Shown: in pieces, positions 13,476-56,539 of the stretch
How positions within the stretch are numbered: the stretch's first letter is position 1
Layout of the letters: each line of letters starts with the position of its first letter
Origin: Ruminococcus sp.
GTDB lineage: Bacteria; Bacillota; Clostridia; Oscillospirales; Ruminococcaceae
Assembly (NCBI GenBank): GCA_017519415.1
Contig: JAFWSI010000015.1
Coordinates: forward strand, 23,197-87,196
Direction of reading: 5' to 3'
Length of the DNA: 64,000 bases
Notes under the pieces: model-generated
Told to the model about the DNA's origin: nothing
Database searches by the model: none
The model's input: only the letters and a program-made list of their open reading frames with translations
Position numbers and translations under genes: made by a program

Positions 13476-13505
13476 CAAATCATCACGAGAGAGGAAGTGT
13501 TGACT

Positions 13506-14072
13506 ATGAACAGGTTGATCCCGGGTACTGCAATGAAGTTTTCCGAACAGGCAAGAGAGTCTGCGTTTTCACTCATTTCTCCCGTCCTTGAGGCTACAGG
13601 CGGGCTTACGCTGTCGCAGCTTTCAAAGCTGACGGGACTGGAGGGCACTACTATCCAGAACTGGATAAAACGCGGCTGGGTCTCTGCTACCAACGGGAAA
13701 AAGTATTCGGAGCAGCAGATACTGAGAATACTCCTTATCAATATGCTCCGCAAGGCAATGAAGCTTGAGGATATTGCAAATCTTATGAGATATATCAACG
13801 GCGACGTCGAGGACAAGTCCGACGACATCATTGACGAGATACTTCTTTACAATATCCTTTGCAGGATAATATTTACGGCAGAGGACGAGGGCGCTTTTGA
13901 TCCCGATAAGGTAAAGGAGCTCGTTTCGCGTGAGATAGCCGATTATAAGTCGGAGATCGCCGATGTTGACAAGCTCAGGAAGGCCATGTTCGTCATGGTC
14001 ATGGGTTACAGGAGCGGCTGTCTCAGGACAGAAATGGAAAAGGGATTGGAAGTCATTCTTGACGAGATGTAA
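13506..14072 (+). CDS. DUF1836 family protein, probable DNA-binding regulator
   Basis: 188 residues. A MerR-like winged helix-turn-helix occupies about residues 35-90 (GGLTLSQLSKLTGLEGTTIQNWIKRGWV, then YSEQQILRILLINML). The rest is helical. This matches DUF1836 proteins of Firmicutes, whose targets are not known. GTG and TTG codons lie slightly upstream in frame, but the ATG at 13506 has the better distance from GAGGAAG. It heads a same-strand series with two small genes and an SPFH gene and may regulate them; that is inference. Confidence 0.8.
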   Translation: MNRLIPGTAMKFSEQARESAFSLISPVLEATGGLTLSQLSKLTGLEGTTIQNWIKRGWVSATNGKKYSEQQILRILLINMLRKAMKLEDIANLMRYINGDVEDKSDDIIDEILLYNILCRIIFTAEDEGAFDPDKVKELVSREIADYKSEIADVDKLRKAMFVMVMGYRSGCLRTEMEKGLEVILDEM

Positions 14073-14115
14073 GATCCTGAAAAAATAAGATACATGATAT
14101 AGGAGATCATTGAAA

Positions 14116-14313
14116 ATGAATGTTGTAACTGCACTACTAATGAGCAAAAAGAAGATCATCAGGCTTTTTGAAAGCTCAAAGGCGTTGTCTGCGGACAGTG
14201 CCAAGACGCTAGACGAAATGGGCATATTCAATCCCGAGGCAACATACGAGCTGCTGTACGATAATGTCATCTCGGCAACAGAGGACGGTAAATACTATCT
14301 TAACAAGAATTAA
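14116..14313 (+). CDS. Small protein, first of two tandem paralogues
   Basis: 65 residues, starting MNVVTALLMSKKKIIRLFESS. The pattern is a short hydrophobic start, a basic KKKII segment, a predicted helix pair with an EMGIFNPEATYELLYD core, and the ending DGKYYLNKN. The next gene has the same layout (ETGLFNPYAF, ending DGRYYLNR). The compact C-terminal part with a final YYLN looks like a tiny winged helix. An AGGAG site precedes the ATG by 10 bases; a TTG six bases upstream is possible. Function unknown. The small proteins sit directly before an SPFH gene. Confidence 0.7.
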   Translation: MNVVTALLMSKKKIIRLFESSKALSADSAKTLDEMGIFNPEATYELLYDNVISATEDGKYYLNKN

Positions 14314-14345
14314 AGCATATGACGCATAATAAAGGGGGGATCATT

Positions 14346-14561
14346 ATGGCGTTCGTATTTGTTCCGCCTGTTGGACTTATAAGGAGGAAAAGAATAATCA
14401 GGGTGCTTATGAGAGCAAATGCTTATTCGGAAAGCACCGCCAGAAGGCTTAATGAAACAGGACTTTTCAATCCTTATGCTTTTCCGTTCCTTACTCGCAG
14501 AATGGTAAAACGACATATCATATCAGTAACAGATGACGGAAGGTATTATCTTAACAGATAA
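14346..14561 (+). CDS. Small protein, second tandem paralogue
   Basis: 71 residues. It has a hydrophobic start (MAFVFVPPVGLI), then RRKRIIRVLMRA, a NETGLFNPYAF core and the ending TDDGRYYLNR. Aligned by eye with the preceding gene, about a third of positions agree, mostly in the second half. The start at 14346 follows a GGGGGA site; an ATG 27 bases upstream lacks one. It probably arose by duplication. Function unknown. Confidence 0.72.
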   Translation: MAFVFVPPVGLIRRKRIIRVLMRANAYSESTARRLNETGLFNPYAFPFLTRRMVKRHIISVTDDGRYYLNR

Positions 14562-14594: not shown

Positions 14595-15497
14595 ATGGGT
14601 GTTAATGTTAGGGAGATAAATGGAAATGCTCCGAAAAAACCAAGCCTTAAGGGCATAAAGTGGCTGATAGCGGGAATTGCCGCACTGTTCATCGCCGCAA
14701 ATTCCTTCACCATAGTTCCCGCAGGTAATACGGGAGTAGTTCTTACGCTGGGCGAGGTAGCGGAAAAGCCTTTATCCGAGGGTTTCCATTTAAAAGCGCC
14801 ATTTATCCAGACAGTTGAGGATATGTCCAACAAGATACAGGTCTATGAGACTCCTGCTTCGGCGGTCTCAAAGGACCTCCAGACTGTAAGCAGCAAGATC
14901 GCTGTGAACTACAGGCTTATCTCGGACAAGTCCCCGAATATGTACAAGGACGTAGGCGTTGATTATCAGACGATACTTATCGCGCCCGTAGTTCAGGAGT
15001 GCATGAAGTCTGCAACAGCCAAGTACAACGCAGAGCAGCTCATAACGGAGCGTGCTGCGGTAAGTGACGAGGTAAAGACAGCTCTTGACGGCAAGCTCAA
15101 CAACTACGGCATATTCATAGAGAAGTTCAATATCGTGAACTTTGACTTTTCGGCTGAGTTCAATACTGCTATCGAAGCAAAGCAGGTAGCGGAGCAGAAC
15201 CTGCTCAAGACCAAGACAGAGCAGGAACAGGCAAAGGTAATCGCAAAGACAGAGGCTGAAAAGAAGGTCATTGCTGCAAATGCAGAGGCGGAGGCAATAC
15301 TTGCCCAGGCACAGGCTCAGGCGGACGCCAACAAGCTTCTTGAGGAGTCGCTTTCGGGTAAGGTCATCGCATATGAGCAGATCCAGAAATGGAACGGCGT
15401 AATGCCCAAGGTTACCGGCAAGGACGGCGGACTGCTCATAGATGTGGATATAGACGAGCCGTCAGGCAGCTCCGCAGCACAGACACCTAACGGATAA
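14595..15497 (+). CDS. SPFH/prohibitin-family membrane protein
   Basis: 300 residues. One N-terminal membrane helix (about 22-41, WLIAGIAALFIAANSFTIV) is followed by the SPFH domain starting VPAGNTGVVLTLGEVAEKPLSEGFHLKAPF. A long Ala/Glu/Gln coiled coil runs from about 195 to 255, and the tail is VTGKDGGLLIDVDI. This is the HflK/prohibitin-like layout, in which subunits form large rings at the membrane that organise proteases or lipids. RBS AAAGGAG. It closes a series of a DUF1836 regulator and two small paralogues; the mRNA probably runs on into the G-run hairpin region. Confidence 0.9.
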   Translation: MGVNVREINGNAPKKPSLKGIKWLIAGIAALFIAANSFTIVPAGNTGVVLTLGEVAEKPLSEGFHLKAPFIQTVEDMSNKIQVYETPASAVSKDLQTVSSKIAVNYRLISDKSPNMYKDVGVDYQTILIAPVVQECMKSATAKYNAEQLITERAAVSDEVKTALDGKLNNYGIFIEKFNIVNFDFSAEFNTAIEAKQVAEQNLLKTKTEQEQAKVIAKTEAEKKVIAANAEAEAILAQAQAQADANKLLEESLSGKVIAYEQIQKWNGVMPKVTGKDGGLLIDVDIDEPSGSSAAQTPNG

Positions 15498-15499
15498 TA

Positions 15500-15957
15500 A
15501 GTCTTTCGGGGGGATAATGCTGTTCACGGAACAGCGCAATACTGAGTTTCTTCCTCCGTTTAGGGGACGGAGGAGGAGCTCGCTCATCTGACTGATAACA
15601 GAGATCCCGGAGCTTTTTATTAGGGGGAAGCTTCGTGTATATAGATCTCATGCGGGATGTTGGGGAACATAACGCACATGGGGGACATGAGATGTGACAT
15701 CGGAGGAATGACGTAACGGCTGCGACAGGGGCGATCGGGGGTAAATGACCGCTCCGCCGCAGAAGGACAGCGGCAGTATAGGGGGACATGAGTTGTGACA
15801 TTGAAGGAATGACATAACGGCTATGATATAGGGGTGATCGGGGGTAAACGGTCACCAGCCGCAGGGTGGTTTTGCGGCAGCATATGCAGGGGAAAGGATC
15901 ATCTGCAATTCAGGGGGAAATGAGAAAAGCTTATGTCGGGGGGACATAAGCTTTTTT
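15500..15957 (+). ncRNA. Candidate structured RNA rich in G-run hairpin loops, with a tandem 101-base repeat
   Basis: No gene fits here, but the plus strand has 13 runs of four to six G in about 440 bases, many in hairpin loops. Examples: CCTCCGT/ACGGAGG around TTAGGGG (15553-15573); ATGTT/AACAT around GGGG (15657-15670); and the final stem at 15925-15955, whose loop is GGGGG. A unit of about 101 bases occurs twice, at about 15680-15780 and 15781-15884. Between copies one pair in the stem before GGGGGTAAA changes C-G to T-A, keeping the pairing. A strong terminator ends the region. No promoter is seen, so it may be the 3' part of the SPFH mRNA. I do not recognise a known RNA family. It could instead be a non-RNA repeat. 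Confidence 0.55.
15925..15957 (+). terminator. Terminator ending the G-run RNA (also serves ispE)
   Basis: A 13-base-pair perfect stem, 15925-15937 with 15943-15955, with a five-G loop and a T-run. It is directly next to the ispE stop codon on the other strand, so it may work in both directions. Confidence 0.85.
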
Positions 15958-15958
15958 G

Positions 15959-16816
15959 TTATATTATTATGAAGCTTTCGGGAACGGTTTCGCATACTGC
16001 GGCAAAATACCCTTTTTCCCTGAGCTTGTCGACGCATCTGGCAGCCTGTGCAGCGTCCTCAAAAAGTCCGAAAACCGCCGAGCCGCTGCCTGTCATGACA
16101 GCTCTGAGGGCACGGTATTCCAGCATATCGCTTCTGATGTCCTCCACCTCGGGAAGCCTGACGGCCTGTTCAAAGAGATTGCCGAAGTATTTATAAGCTG
16201 TATCCGGAGCGGTCTTTATCGCTTCTGCAAGCTTTTGCGTTTCGGGGTGCAGCGGTTCTTCAAGGCCGTCGATATTACGGTAAGCCTCCGCAGTAGAAAC
16301 GCCCTCTTTTCCCTTGGCGATGACCAGTATGCGTCCCGAATAATCGGCTATGGGAGTTATCCTCTCGCCGATACCCTCAACATAGGCAGTTCCTCCCGTA
16401 AGGAAGAAGGGAACGTCTGCTCCCAGCTTTTCGGGAGCGTTTATGCTTTTTCCCGTCATTCTGCCGAGACACCAGAGCACAGCCGCAGCGTCGGTGCTGC
16501 CTCCGCCCATGCCCGCCTGTGAGGGTATGCCCTTTTTTATATGTATCCGGCAGCCGCAGTCTATTCCGTTCTGCTCAAAGAAGAACTTGGCCGCTTTACA
16601 GGCGATATTCCGTTCATCACAGGGTATGGGATCGGAGTCTGCAAACTCTCCCGGCACCTCGCAGGAAAGCTCAATACCTCCCTTTGTAAGCTCCACCTCT
16701 ACCTCGTCGTAAAGTCCCACTGTCTGAAAAACGCTTTCAAGGCTGTGGTAGCCGTTGGGTAGCTTTCCCGTTACGTCCAGCGCAAGATTGATCTTTGCAG
16801 CCGTTTTAACCCTCAT
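15959..16816 (-). CDS. ispE: 4-diphosphocytidyl-2-C-methyl-D-erythritol kinase
   Basis: 285 residues, a standard IspE. GHMP-kinase motifs: AKINLALDVTGKLPNGYH at the start, the ATP loop IPSQAGMGGGSTDAAA and a late MTGSGSAVFGLF. It phosphorylates CDP-methylerythritol in the non-mevalonate isoprenoid pathway. It overlaps the aminotransferase gene upstream by 11 bases and lies in an lrp-like, aminotransferase, ispE series. Confidence 0.95.
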   Translation of the reverse strand: MRVKTAAKINLALDVTGKLPNGYHSLESVFQTVGLYDEVEVELTKGGIELSCEVPGEFADSDPIPCDERNIACKAAKFFFEQNGIDCGCRIHIKKGIPSQAGMGGGSTDAAAVLWCLGRMTGKSINAPEKLGADVPFFLTGGTAYVEGIGERITPIADYSGRILVIAKGKEGVSTAEAYRNIDGLEEPLHPETQKLAEAIKTAPDTAYKYFGNLFEQAVRLPEVEDIRSDMLEYRALRAVMTGSGSAVFGLFEDAAQAARCVDKLREKGYFAAVCETVPESFIII

Positions 16817-50122: not shown

Positions 50123-51747
50123 ATATCCCAGCGGCTTGCATCATCTATACCGGGATCAAATTGGAAGGACACAGTGAGCTTTGACAGGTCACTGTCGGAG
50201 TATCCCAGAACATAGCGCTGGAGCTTTACAAAGTCGGCGGTATTGAAATAGCCGTCGCTGTTAAGGTCGATAGAGCCGTCCGGGGTGCTGCTGTTGTTTG
50301 ACGAGATAAGCAGCGTTCGCATTCTTATCAGATCGAATACATCTATGACGCCGTCGTTGTTGACGTCACCTCTTACAACGTCCATTGCGGATGTGGGAAT
50401 AGTAGTAGTTGTCGTTGTAGTGGTGGTCGTAGTTGAGGTTGTGGTAGTCGTCGTTGTCGTTGTTGTAGTTGCAGTTACCGCCTCGTTCCGGGGGTATATG
50501 TTCAGGAACAGATCCAGTGACTCCAGAGGCTTTCCATGGAAGTCGAAAAGCGCCTGATTATCAAATGATGAACCGCCTGTTTCGGTGGCGTCCTTGTCGT
50601 AGCTGCCTGCGTAGGCAGTTGCCCAGCCCGAGCCCTGCTGCTCCCAGTGCTGCTTCTGCTCGCTGTAGGAGATACCGGGTACGCCCAGCCATGCGGGTTC
50701 CCAGTAGAATACGCCTATACCGTGGCCGTTGCAGTTGGCAACGGTCTGAAATACATCGGCAAGAGCCTTTGCCTGACCCTGCACGGATATGTCGTACCTC
50801 AGATCGACGCCGCTGGTGCTTGAGGTAACGGTATTGCCGAAGCTGTCACCGTCCTCATTGGTGTAGGGATAAGCGGTCTCAACTACCATAACGTACTTGT
50901 TGTATCTGTTTCCGATATCGGTAAGGGTCTTTTGCAGATTGTCGAGAGAGCCGTGCCAGTAGGAATAGTAAGAGCAGGCGAAAATATCATAATCCAGACT
51001 GCATTCGTTCATCACCTGAGCATACCAGCCGAAATGGCCGTTGCCTGCATTGGCAAAGTGATGAGCTATGAGGATATTCCTGTCAAAGTCGCGGACAGCC
51101 TTCTCTCCGCTGGAGAAGAGGTCGCATATCCTGTACATATCCTTTTCGCCGCAGAAGAAGCACTCGGTCTCGTTGCCCACCTGCACCATGCCGATGTCAC
51201 TGCCGTTTTCTGTGAGATATTTCAGCACCCATGAGGTCCAGTTGTATATCTCGCGTTTAAGGGTGTCGTGATCGTGCTGCTGCCAGTATTTCGGGCGGGT
51301 CTGCTTTGCAGGGTCTGCCCAGAAGTCGGAATACTGTATATCCGCAAGGAGCTTCATGCCGTTCTCGGCAGCTCTCTTTCCTATGGCCGCAGCGGTCTCG
51401 AGGTCGGAGTTTCCGCCGCCGTAGCTGTGACCGTTGCCGTCGTTGGGCTCGTTCCATATCCTTACGCGGATATAGTTTACGCCGTGGTCGGCGAGAGTCC
51501 TGAAAATATCCTGTTCGTTGCCGTTATCGTCATAGAACCTCACACCCGCCTTTTCTATGGATATTATCGAGGAAATATCCACGCCGCGTATGGGCTCGCC
51601 GCCGTTTATGCGGCTGTCGAAATTGGTGAAGGTCACGGACGGTATATCGGCAGCCTGCGCGGGAGAGAGGGTACCCGTTGTTCTTGCAGCCGAAGGCAGC
51701 AGGGTAAGTACAGCAGCTGCCGCTGCGATCAGTTTTCTGAGTTTCAT
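50110..51747 (-). CDS. GH53 arabinogalactan endo-beta-1,4-galactanase with dockerin
   Basis: 545 residues. Signal peptide ends AQAA. The GH53 domain (about 30-400) has RGVDISSIISIEKAG, the acid/base in MVQVGNETE (around 192) and the nucleophile in MVVETAYPYT (around 288). Then comes a linker of about 25 threonines with serines, a dockerin with GDVNNDGVIDVFDLIRM and DLNSDGYFNTADFVKL, and a 28-residue tail ending DMSRW. It cuts pectic galactan side chains and would be part of the cellulosome. Its minus-strand promoter is perfect. The short tail after the dockerin is odd. Confidence 0.95.
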   Translation of the reverse strand: MKLRKLIAAAAAVLTLLPSAARTTGTLSPAQAADIPSVTFTNFDSRINGGEPIRGVDISSIISIEKAGVRFYDDNGNEQDIFRTLADHGVNYIRVRIWNEPNDGNGHSYGGGNSDLETAAAIGKRAAENGMKLLADIQYSDFWADPAKQTRPKYWQQHDHDTLKREIYNWTSWVLKYLTENGSDIGMVQVGNETECFFCGEKDMYRICDLFSSGEKAVRDFDRNILIAHHFANAGNGHFGWYAQVMNECSLDYDIFACSYYSYWHGSLDNLQKTLTDIGNRYNKYVMVVETAYPYTNEDGDSFGNTVTSSTSGVDLRYDISVQGQAKALADVFQTVANCNGHGIGVFYWEPAWLGVPGISYSEQKQHWEQQGSGWATAYAGSYDKDATETGGSSFDNQALFDFHGKPLESLDLFLNIYPRNEAVTATTTTTTTTTTTSTTTTTTTTTTTIPTSAMDVVRGDVNNDGVIDVFDLIRMRTLLISSNNSSTPDGSIDLNSDGYFNTADFVKLQRYVLGYSDSDLSKLTVSFQFDPGIDDASRWDMSRW

Positions 51748-56319: not shown

Positions 56320-56324
56320 AGTTA

Positions 56325-56472
56325 CAAGGTAGAGGCGCGGCTGCGAACAGTACCTGTACACGGGACGACCGGTCCGATGGTGTGCAGCGAAAGGCAATGC
56401 CGCCGAAGAGCTGTTTTTGGTAAACTCAGCTCTGGCTGTGTGCCGAACAGGTATTCAGCTGTCATCATGCTT
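56325..56472 (+). ncRNA. Lysine riboswitch (L-box)
   Basis: Core elements in order, as known from the B. subtilis lysC switch: AGAGGCGCG (56331-56339), AGTA (56349-56352), GAAAGG (56389-56394), GCCGCCGAAG (56399-56408), a GAGCTG/CAGCTC hairpin (56408-56413 with 56426-56431), GGCTG (56434-56438) and a closing GCTGTCA. The asd gene is downstream, and a terminator hairpin (56540-56559) follows. In known L-boxes lysine binding favours termination. Likely controls asd and perhaps the dap genes past it. Confidence 0.88.
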
Positions 56473-56539
56473 TTGATGGAGAGCTATCGGCATATTTGTT
56501 TCTCGATATGTCAACATTTCTATTATAACGCATGATGAG

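Follow-up and report, generated by a model that had tools for sequence, protein, structure and literature searches.

A G-run hairpin RNA behind an SPFH gene of Ruminococcus: probable multivalent sponge, or multi-site target, of a C-rich small RNA

The SPFH gene of a presumed operon in Ruminococcus sp. is followed by a stretch dense in G-runs and hairpins. Our best reading of its sequence is that it encodes an RNA with many sites for a C-rich small RNA (sRNA) predicted at a separate locus, either as its multivalent sponge or as a multi-site target. We give a probability of about 70% to the view that a hairpin scaffold displaying G-run landing sites titrates this one trans-encoded sRNA off its other targets. 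We infer that both RNAs are transcribed, that they bind each other in vivo and that the net result is sequestration; a lowering of the sRNA activity is suggested by the number of sites, by their position after the last gene and by retention of the RNA without SPFH.

The G-run stretch spans positions 15498–15957 of the window (the whole 64-kb stretch of DNA analyzed) and contains, as the first-pass annotation had counted, 13 runs of four to six G (starting at 15508, 15563, 15623, 15662, 15680, 15728, 15737, 15781, 15831, 15840, 15889, 15913, and 15938) and no C-runs of four or more. Scanned in 20-nt steps from starts outside 15000–16000, the window otherwise reached at most four G-runs per 460 nt. 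The predicted fold of the stretch reaches −169.6 kcal/mol vs. a mean of −131.6 kcal/mol for dinucleotide shuffles and was more stable than 100 out of 100 of these (z −6.98), in agreement with the structured RNA proposed earlier. All three hairpins named in the first-pass annotation (15553–15573, 15657–15670, and 15925–15955) are present, and the last of them, a perfect 13-bp inverted repeat, bears out the strong terminator said to end the stretch. G-runs are predicted to be unpaired at 0.63, vs. 0.30 for other G, and 14 of 14 close relatives agree in the sign of this difference. Directly 5′ of the G-run RNA, no sigma-70-like promoter was detected.

The tandem 101-base repeat reported for this stretch is real, yet inexact: 42 nt are repeated at 90% identity with a spacing of 101 and 19 nt at 95% with a spacing of 103, the two spacings being indicative of indels. 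The repeat was absent from the output of Tandem Repeats Finder. The stem change that had been noticed between the copies is also present, GCGATC/GACCGC of the H5 stem in copy 1 being replaced by GGTGATCG/CGGTCACC in copy 2, i.e., C-G by T-A around GGGGGTAAA, and a GCCGC/GCGGC stem is common to both copies with a different loop. A small protein gene was considered for this stretch and rejected, as no conserved frame was found: no + strand ORF of at least 80 aa lies wholly inside, the ORFs touching the stretch are one of 122 aa on the − strand (15487–15855) and two on the + strand starting at 15933 and 15956, and the sizes of indels in the G-run RNAs of 18 relatives include 1, 2, and 4 nt. The features of the locus are as follows.

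13497..14072, + strand: DUF1836/MerR-type regulator gene, first of the presumed operon (Pfam PF08876 and PF13411)
14116..14313, + strand: small protein copy A, 65 aa, no Pfam match
14319..14561, + strand: small protein copy B, winged-helix-like by eye, no Pfam match
14595..15497, + strand: SPFH/Band 7 protein gene, 5′ of the G-run RNA (Pfam PF01145, E 8.1e-32)
15498..15957, + strand: G-run RNA (proposed sponge), from the SPFH stop to the terminator, ends putative; based on G-runs, z −6.98, and homologues
15519..15535, + strand: hairpin H1 (GCTGTTC ACG GAACAGC), kept in close relatives; 7 pairs, 4 with double changes
15550..15577, + strand: hairpin H2, G-run in the loop; 11 consensus pairs, 7 with double changes
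15583..15606, + strand: CTCATCTGACTGAT..AGAGAT motif, complementary to the sRNA strand AUCAUGGCAGAUGAG (−16.1 kcal/mol); possibly a small hairpin
15610..15634, + strand: hairpin H3 (GAGCTT..AAGCTTC) with GGGGG; based on fold and relatives
15651..15676, + strand: hairpin H4 with a GGGG tetraloop (GTT GGGG AAC); weak match to hairpin model R1 (E 0.79), within a predicted sRNA site at 15643–15668 (−23.8 kcal/mol)
15680..15780, + strand: repeat copy 1, from the repeat search
15731..15752, + strand: H5 copy 1, loop GGGGGTAAA; GGGGUAAA complements the sRNA loop UUUACCCC, predicted site at 15718–15743 (−22.0 kcal/mol)
15781..15883, end approximate, + strand: repeat copy 2, diverged and with indels, from the repeat search
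15820..15845, + strand: best predicted sRNA site (GCUAUGAUAUAGGGGUGAUCGGGGGU), −36.7 kcal/mol
15833..15856, + strand: H5 copy 2 (GGTGATCG GGGGTAAA CGGTCACC), from repeat and hairpin analysis
15925..15955, + strand: intrinsic terminator with a G-run in the loop, 13-bp arms separated by 5 nt

The two small genes at 14116–14313 and 14319–14561 are tandem copies of one 65–80-aa protein, winged-helix-like by eye, which close relatives carry in one to three copies 5′ of SPFH; in L123, L131, L132, and L137 one copy is located 3′ of SPFH, L131 being the SPFH locus of R. flavefaciens FD-1. Elsewhere, the window holds a lysine riboswitch at 56322–56494 (Rfam RF00168, 101 bits) and tandem repeats with periods of 15 and 21 bases at 50400–50476.

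A DNA search recovered the RNA core in three further genomes of the genus (G006, G007, and G010), again directly 3′ of SPFH, where the gene past the terminator is an amidohydrolase (by eye) and not ispE. Since the homologues are syntenic, a simple insertion repeat, the outcome against which the first-pass annotation had set its claim, was rejected. In close relatives the succession H1, H2, CTCATCTG, H3, H4 is preserved; most of them also have GGGGTAAAC before the terminator and AGGGGT as the terminator loop, and ATGATATAGGGGTGATCGGGG is kept in part of them. Covariation was seen as well: among 18 close relatives, 11 of the 27 predicted pairs in the 5′ domain showed at least one compensatory double change.

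With a cutoff of E 1e-60, the SPFH protein was detected in 94 of the 125 genus genomes; the genus in the named records is Ruminococcus, with R. flavefaciens prominent. In 78 of the 80 named loci DUF1836 lies at most 1.5 kb 5′ of SPFH, and it was not found in seven other genomes of the family Ruminococcaceae, a result that shows little. Downstream regions from 90 of the 94 SPFH genomes were used (30 loci plus 60 of 64 others, leaving out G086, G090, G132, and G137). At least one GGGG-loop hairpin was found downstream of SPFH in 60 of these 90 loci and, by the same test, none in the remaining 30, although for related genomes such counts do not represent independent events. When hairpins were picked by stem (6 bp) and loop length (4 nt) alone, whatever the loop sequence, 73 of 179 in the 90 regions of 500 nt had a GGGG loop, vs. 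none of 296 on both strands of the window. Stems vary from subclade to subclade, and the GGGG tetraloops persist. Over 80 loci, 64 sense-strand GGGG loops are located 0–500 nt 3′ of SPFH and 12 in the remainder of the 3 kb downstream; a further 15 lie up to 750 nt 5′ of SPFH (two inside DUF1836, the other 13 between this gene and SPFH), none lies inside SPFH, and CCCC loops, which equal GGGG on the opposite strand, numbered one in all 80 loci.

As whole hairpin modules aligned poorly as DNA, a 26-nt ungapped set was used instead, and a GGGG-hairpin model (R1) was built from 21 of the 27 long-stem hairpins of the SPFH-downstream loci; the covariation count of the 26-nt set is circular, since its hairpins were chosen for pairing, and was not taken as evidence. 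R1 gave a single match in the own genome, the weak one inside the G-run stretch. Nine of nine matches in ten other genomes were at SPFH, and in the 125 genus genomes 19 of 22 adjoined SPFH, one adjoined DUF1836 (L208, from a genome without an SPFH match) and two were elsewhere. The position at SPFH arises partly by construction, as the model was built there, so that only the scarcity elsewhere is informative; even this is no proof of absence, given that the 125-genome scan used stricter filters, scored only part of the candidates and missed known sites of the own genome, G019, G035, and G060.

Other small genes occur at these loci. In L108, L120, L148, L153, L172, L173, and others, the stretch from SPFH to the CTCATCTG motif, or the DNA further 3′, codes for tiny acidic-hydrophobic peptides of ~23–51 aa, which often have a basic N-terminus and are possibly membrane-active. 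L208 carries, next to DUF1836 and the GGGG hairpin, a 63-aa gene (L208:1603–1794, − strand) that is LSm-like by eye and has no Pfam match.

The putative partner is found at a place distinct from the SPFH locus. A search with YTCATCTGNCNWKATA gave matches in 96 of 125 genus genomes, and 19 of 30 such loci hold CTCATCTGCCATGATA in one shared surrounding, the opposite strand of which reads as a free-standing sRNA gene in which TATAAT is followed by a body and then by an intrinsic terminator. The own copy, of ~132 nt with assumed ends, lies at G000:C9:47182–47313 (= L273:483–614), and the sRNA query matched the own genome at G000:C9:47161–47311 with 93% identity. The sRNA was detected in 110 of 125 genus genomes, the own one included, and in 65 of 68 of those of good quality; in three of the 110 (G018, G092, and G100) the match is a 24–31-nt fragment, probably due to chance. 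Flanks were translated in five genomes (G000, G012, G035, G061, and G075), which placed a histidine kinase gene 5′ of the sRNA and, in G000, G035, and G061, metK 3′ of it; Pfam returned HisKA, HATPase_c, and S-AdoMet_synt for the G035 locus (L243).

In an alignment of 70 copies from the 110 genomes (30 plus 40 more), an exact TATAAT and the loop UUUACCCCAA were each present in 61, AAUCCCCAAUAAUCCCUAUAUCAU in 67, and the whole of AAUCCCCAAUAAUCCCUAUAUCAUGGCAGAUGAG in 59, and species-specific variants of the loop are few. The model alignment, made of 40 of 54 distinct copies, showed double changes in 12 of 22 pairs, with 99% of cells pairing. The sRNA core has three C-runs, all predicted to be open (0.80–1.00), and a further C-run, in the first hairpin, is not; the exposed ones lie in the hairpin loop UUUACCCCAA and in the near-invariant, predicted single strand AAUCCCCAAUAAUCCCUAUAUCAUGGCAGAUGAG before the terminator. 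At four loci of the sRNA no Rfam family reached the gathering score, and up to E 5 the own copy gave only sub-threshold, chance-level matches to rli60 and GlsR14. Rfam includes an RsaE model, and no match to a model of the RsaE/RoxS kind was obtained. With its own promoter, structured body, exposed C-rich strand, intrinsic terminator and conservation, the partner looks like a gene for a trans-encoded base-pairing sRNA. Outside the genus, matches were obtained in 10 of 394 genomes of the order, two of them Ruminococcus; of the eight others, two (L317 and L322, from one genus of the same family) look by eye like real but diverged copies and the remaining ones were judged mostly chance. A TTCACA-N5-TACACA-like direct repeat precedes the −10 box, with 40 of 70 copies fitting a loose pattern; it may be a response-regulator site.

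The two RNAs are complementary in their conserved parts. Motifs GUUGGGGUAAAC, UUGGGGA, AUAGGGA, and CUCAUCUGNCAUGAU of the G-run RNA complement the loop UUUACCCCAA and the strand AAUCCCCAAUAAUCCCUAUAUCAUGGCAGAUGAG, and the reverse complement of the sRNA strands yields the G-run RNA motifs GUUGGGGUAAAC, UUGGGGAUU, AUAGGGAUU, and CUCAUCUGCCAUGAU. Over 80 loci, 168 perfect sense-strand 9-mers to the sRNA core were counted 0–500 nt 3′ of SPFH (4.25 per kb), vs. 114 in 1 kb upstream and 14 within SPFH (0.19 per kb); the downstream controls gave 21 on the antisense strand and seven for the reversed core.

We then took the best 26-nt duplex with each genome's own sRNA in 60 of the 61 genomes with both RNAs (one dropped, N). 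Its mean was −30.4 kcal/mol for the sense strand vs. −17.0 for the antisense strand, −19.3 at 450–900 nt, and −19.9 for shuffled sequences. The sense duplex was stronger than the antisense one in 60 of 60 genomes, indicative of strand specificity, and fell below all four shuffles in 56, the best duplexes of G026, G093, G106, and G117 failing to do so. Duplexes of −30 kcal/mol or lower were obtained in 30 of 60 genomes, compared with 0/60 antisense, 0/59 at 450–900 nt, and 0/240 shuffles; these scores ignore accessibility, and thresholds were chosen after inspection of the data. Sites at or below −17 numbered 10 in the own RNA, with an all-genome mean of 4.6 and 2.2 in shuffles, while a lax threshold of −9 did not discriminate (19 sites vs. 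a shuffle mean of 18.9). The site at 15820–15845 ranked first among 42670 stretches on both strands of the window, the next, located elsewhere, reaching −30.3 kcal/mol; in the own genome only this top site stands out alone, as 68 of the 72 window sites at or below −20 lie outside the G-run RNA. Weak sites excepted, complementarity to the exposed C-rich regions of the sRNA was thus above chance, as would be expected of a sponge of the RosA/RsaI kind.

For the mechanism we propose that the G-run stretch is the 3′ end of the DUF1836–SPFH transcript, or an RNA cut from it, and that in its hairpin scaffold numerous loops and linkers with G-runs would be on display for the sRNA to land on. UGGGGA loops would pair with the UCCCCA strand of the sRNA, AGGGGU(AAA) and GGGGUAAAC with its loop UUUACCCC, and CUCAUCUGNCAUGAUAUAGGGA with the 3′ part of its strand; two kinds of closing pair would be explained by UGGGGA meeting the UCCCCA strand and AGGGGU(AAA) the UUUACCCC loop. 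By means of about 10 sites the sRNA could be titrated from other targets, e.g., mRNAs with the same motif at the Shine-Dalgarno region. Two other genes (L358, L360, L364, and L366; one gene in three genomes) have CATGATATAGGGG directly before the start codon, which makes both candidate mRNA targets of the sRNA. Among 20 further CATGATATAGGG places, four are the G-run RNA itself, four are at gene start regions, and 12 lie in or beside coding sequence and are chance-like. Hfq was found in 39 of 40 genus genomes.

The RNA could also be an ordinary, unusually site-rich target, by which the sRNA controls the DUF1836–SPFH operon through a translation block or a change in decay, titration being a side effect. 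Predicted sites between operon genes or near gene starts fit such direct control as well as they fit a sponge: there are the 13 GGGG hairpins between DUF1836 and SPFH, a site directly before the start of small-protein copy A (14089–14114, −22.1 kcal/mol), and another before a small gene in L115. We nevertheless consider this explanation unlikely, because the densest sites of the window sit past the last gene, 5′ of the terminator, and about 10 of them seem more than the control of one operon needs. Furthermore, DUF1836 and the G-run RNA in its full length are both kept in G063, G065, G073, and G101, which belong to the 31 genomes lacking an SPFH match and show none in the 3 kb around the RNA either; these four were examined via a motif match, and G030, also one of the 31, via R1. 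This retention (INDEPENDENCE from SPFH) argues that the RNA is more than a tail on the SPFH message.

One loop motif repeated on varying stems, as seen here, is a hallmark of protein decoys. CsrB/RsmZ decoys, in which many hairpins with one loop motif titrate the CsrA protein through GGA loops, share with the G-run RNA both this architecture and the titration proposed here, and in L208 the LSm-like gene stands beside a GGGG hairpin. Still, it is very improbable that the GGGG loops bind an RNA-binding protein in the manner of CsrB and that the sRNA match has another cause, as the complementarity reaches far past GGGG (CUCAUCUGNCAUGAUAUAGGGA, GGGGUAAAC) and is antisense. Moreover, the loops keep GGGG (197 of 841, closed by U-A or A-U in 24 of the 27 long-stem hairpins), which fits an sRNA, and not the CsrA motif ANGGA (11 of 841), so that the CsrB-like role offered by the first-pass annotation was abandoned. 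What stands of its multi-hairpin RNA soaking up a protein are the conserved hairpins, the G-runs in loops and soaking up as the best mechanism; the soaked-up partner is most likely the C-rich sRNA. Its other proposal, pairing with the anti-Shine-Dalgarno sequence, would make the hairpins pseudo-Shine-Dalgarno elements binding the 16S rRNA 3′ end, where GGGGG may pair with CCUCC via one G-U and AGGGGUGAUC resembles AGGAGGUGAUC of 16S rRNA. We find this barely credible and a poorer fit, since GGGG is kept and not GGAGG (303 G-runs vs. 13 AGGAGG in the 90 regions of 500 nt downstream), and the conserved flanking letters, like the longer motifs CUCAUCUGNCAUGAUAUAGGGA and GGGGUAAAC, match the sRNA. 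Finally, long antisense identity at single sites (CUCAUCUGNCAUGAUAUAGGG) might suggest that the sRNA gene was duplicated in inverted orientation, or that the stretch is a DNA repeat with no role as RNA. This rival can practically be set aside, because stems and spacers diverge among subclades while loops and sites persist, and a DNA search of the own genome for further copies of the G-run stretch gave short fragments only (E 0.04 or worse).

A G-rich sponge of a C-rich sRNA is an already known kind of RNA in Firmicutes. RosA of Bacillus subtilis, a stand-alone RNA with two G-rich regions, is a sponge of the sRNAs RoxS and FsrA (PMC8216469), and RsaI of Staphylococcus aureus, a stand-alone sRNA, is a sponge of RsaE, its two GGGG motifs pairing with repeated UCCCC motifs (PMC9217828). 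The Ruminococcus pair would resemble RosA, likewise from a Firmicute, in that an mRNA-acting sRNA base-pairs through its C-rich regions with G-rich ones in a second RNA, and RsaI/RsaE in that GGGG motifs fit C-run motifs of an sRNA, the pairing being predicted here. Unlike these RNAs, and as a more elaborate case, the G-run RNA has 13 G-runs, with several GGGG tetraloops, and carries its many GGGG motifs at the 3′ end of an operon. Rfam, at gathering score or up to E 5, gave no sign of a sequence relation between RosA/RoxS or RsaI/RsaE and the Ruminococcus RNAs; the G-run stretch had no match at gathering score and ten sub-threshold ones up to E 5, which correspond to the terminator hairpin or to noise and do not include RosA or RsaI by name. 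Many Gram-negative sponges derive from other transcripts, as stated in PMC8216469, and a decoy at the end of a coding transcript is similar to these; the number of sites and the tetraloops on changing stems distinguish it from them as a class. Among the literature matches listed, there was no description of the Ruminococcus sRNA or its sponge, which is weak evidence of absence, and the top matches listed on Ruminococcus included no sRNA work. In our reading, the new aspects are the number of sites, the tetraloop display, the operon location and the fast turnover of stems.

Taken further, and at somewhat below even odds, the data could describe a genus-wide two-RNA circuit. A near-invariant C-rich sRNA, perhaps switched by the adjacent sensor-kinase system, would face a fast-evolving multivalent antagonist whose GGGG tetraloops, on changing stems, kiss its C loops; this antagonist could outlive the protein gene, so that the DUF1836 operon would be kept partly for its non-coding sites. 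Finding the complementary RNA is a way to tell an RNA decoy from a supposed protein decoy. A sponge of about 10 sites with constant loops and changing stems, where RosA and RsaI have two G-rich regions, would make multivalency and the evolution of an sRNA–sponge pair directly testable. Both halves of a likely post-transcriptional circuit would then be at hand in a major fibre-degrading genus of the gut and rumen.
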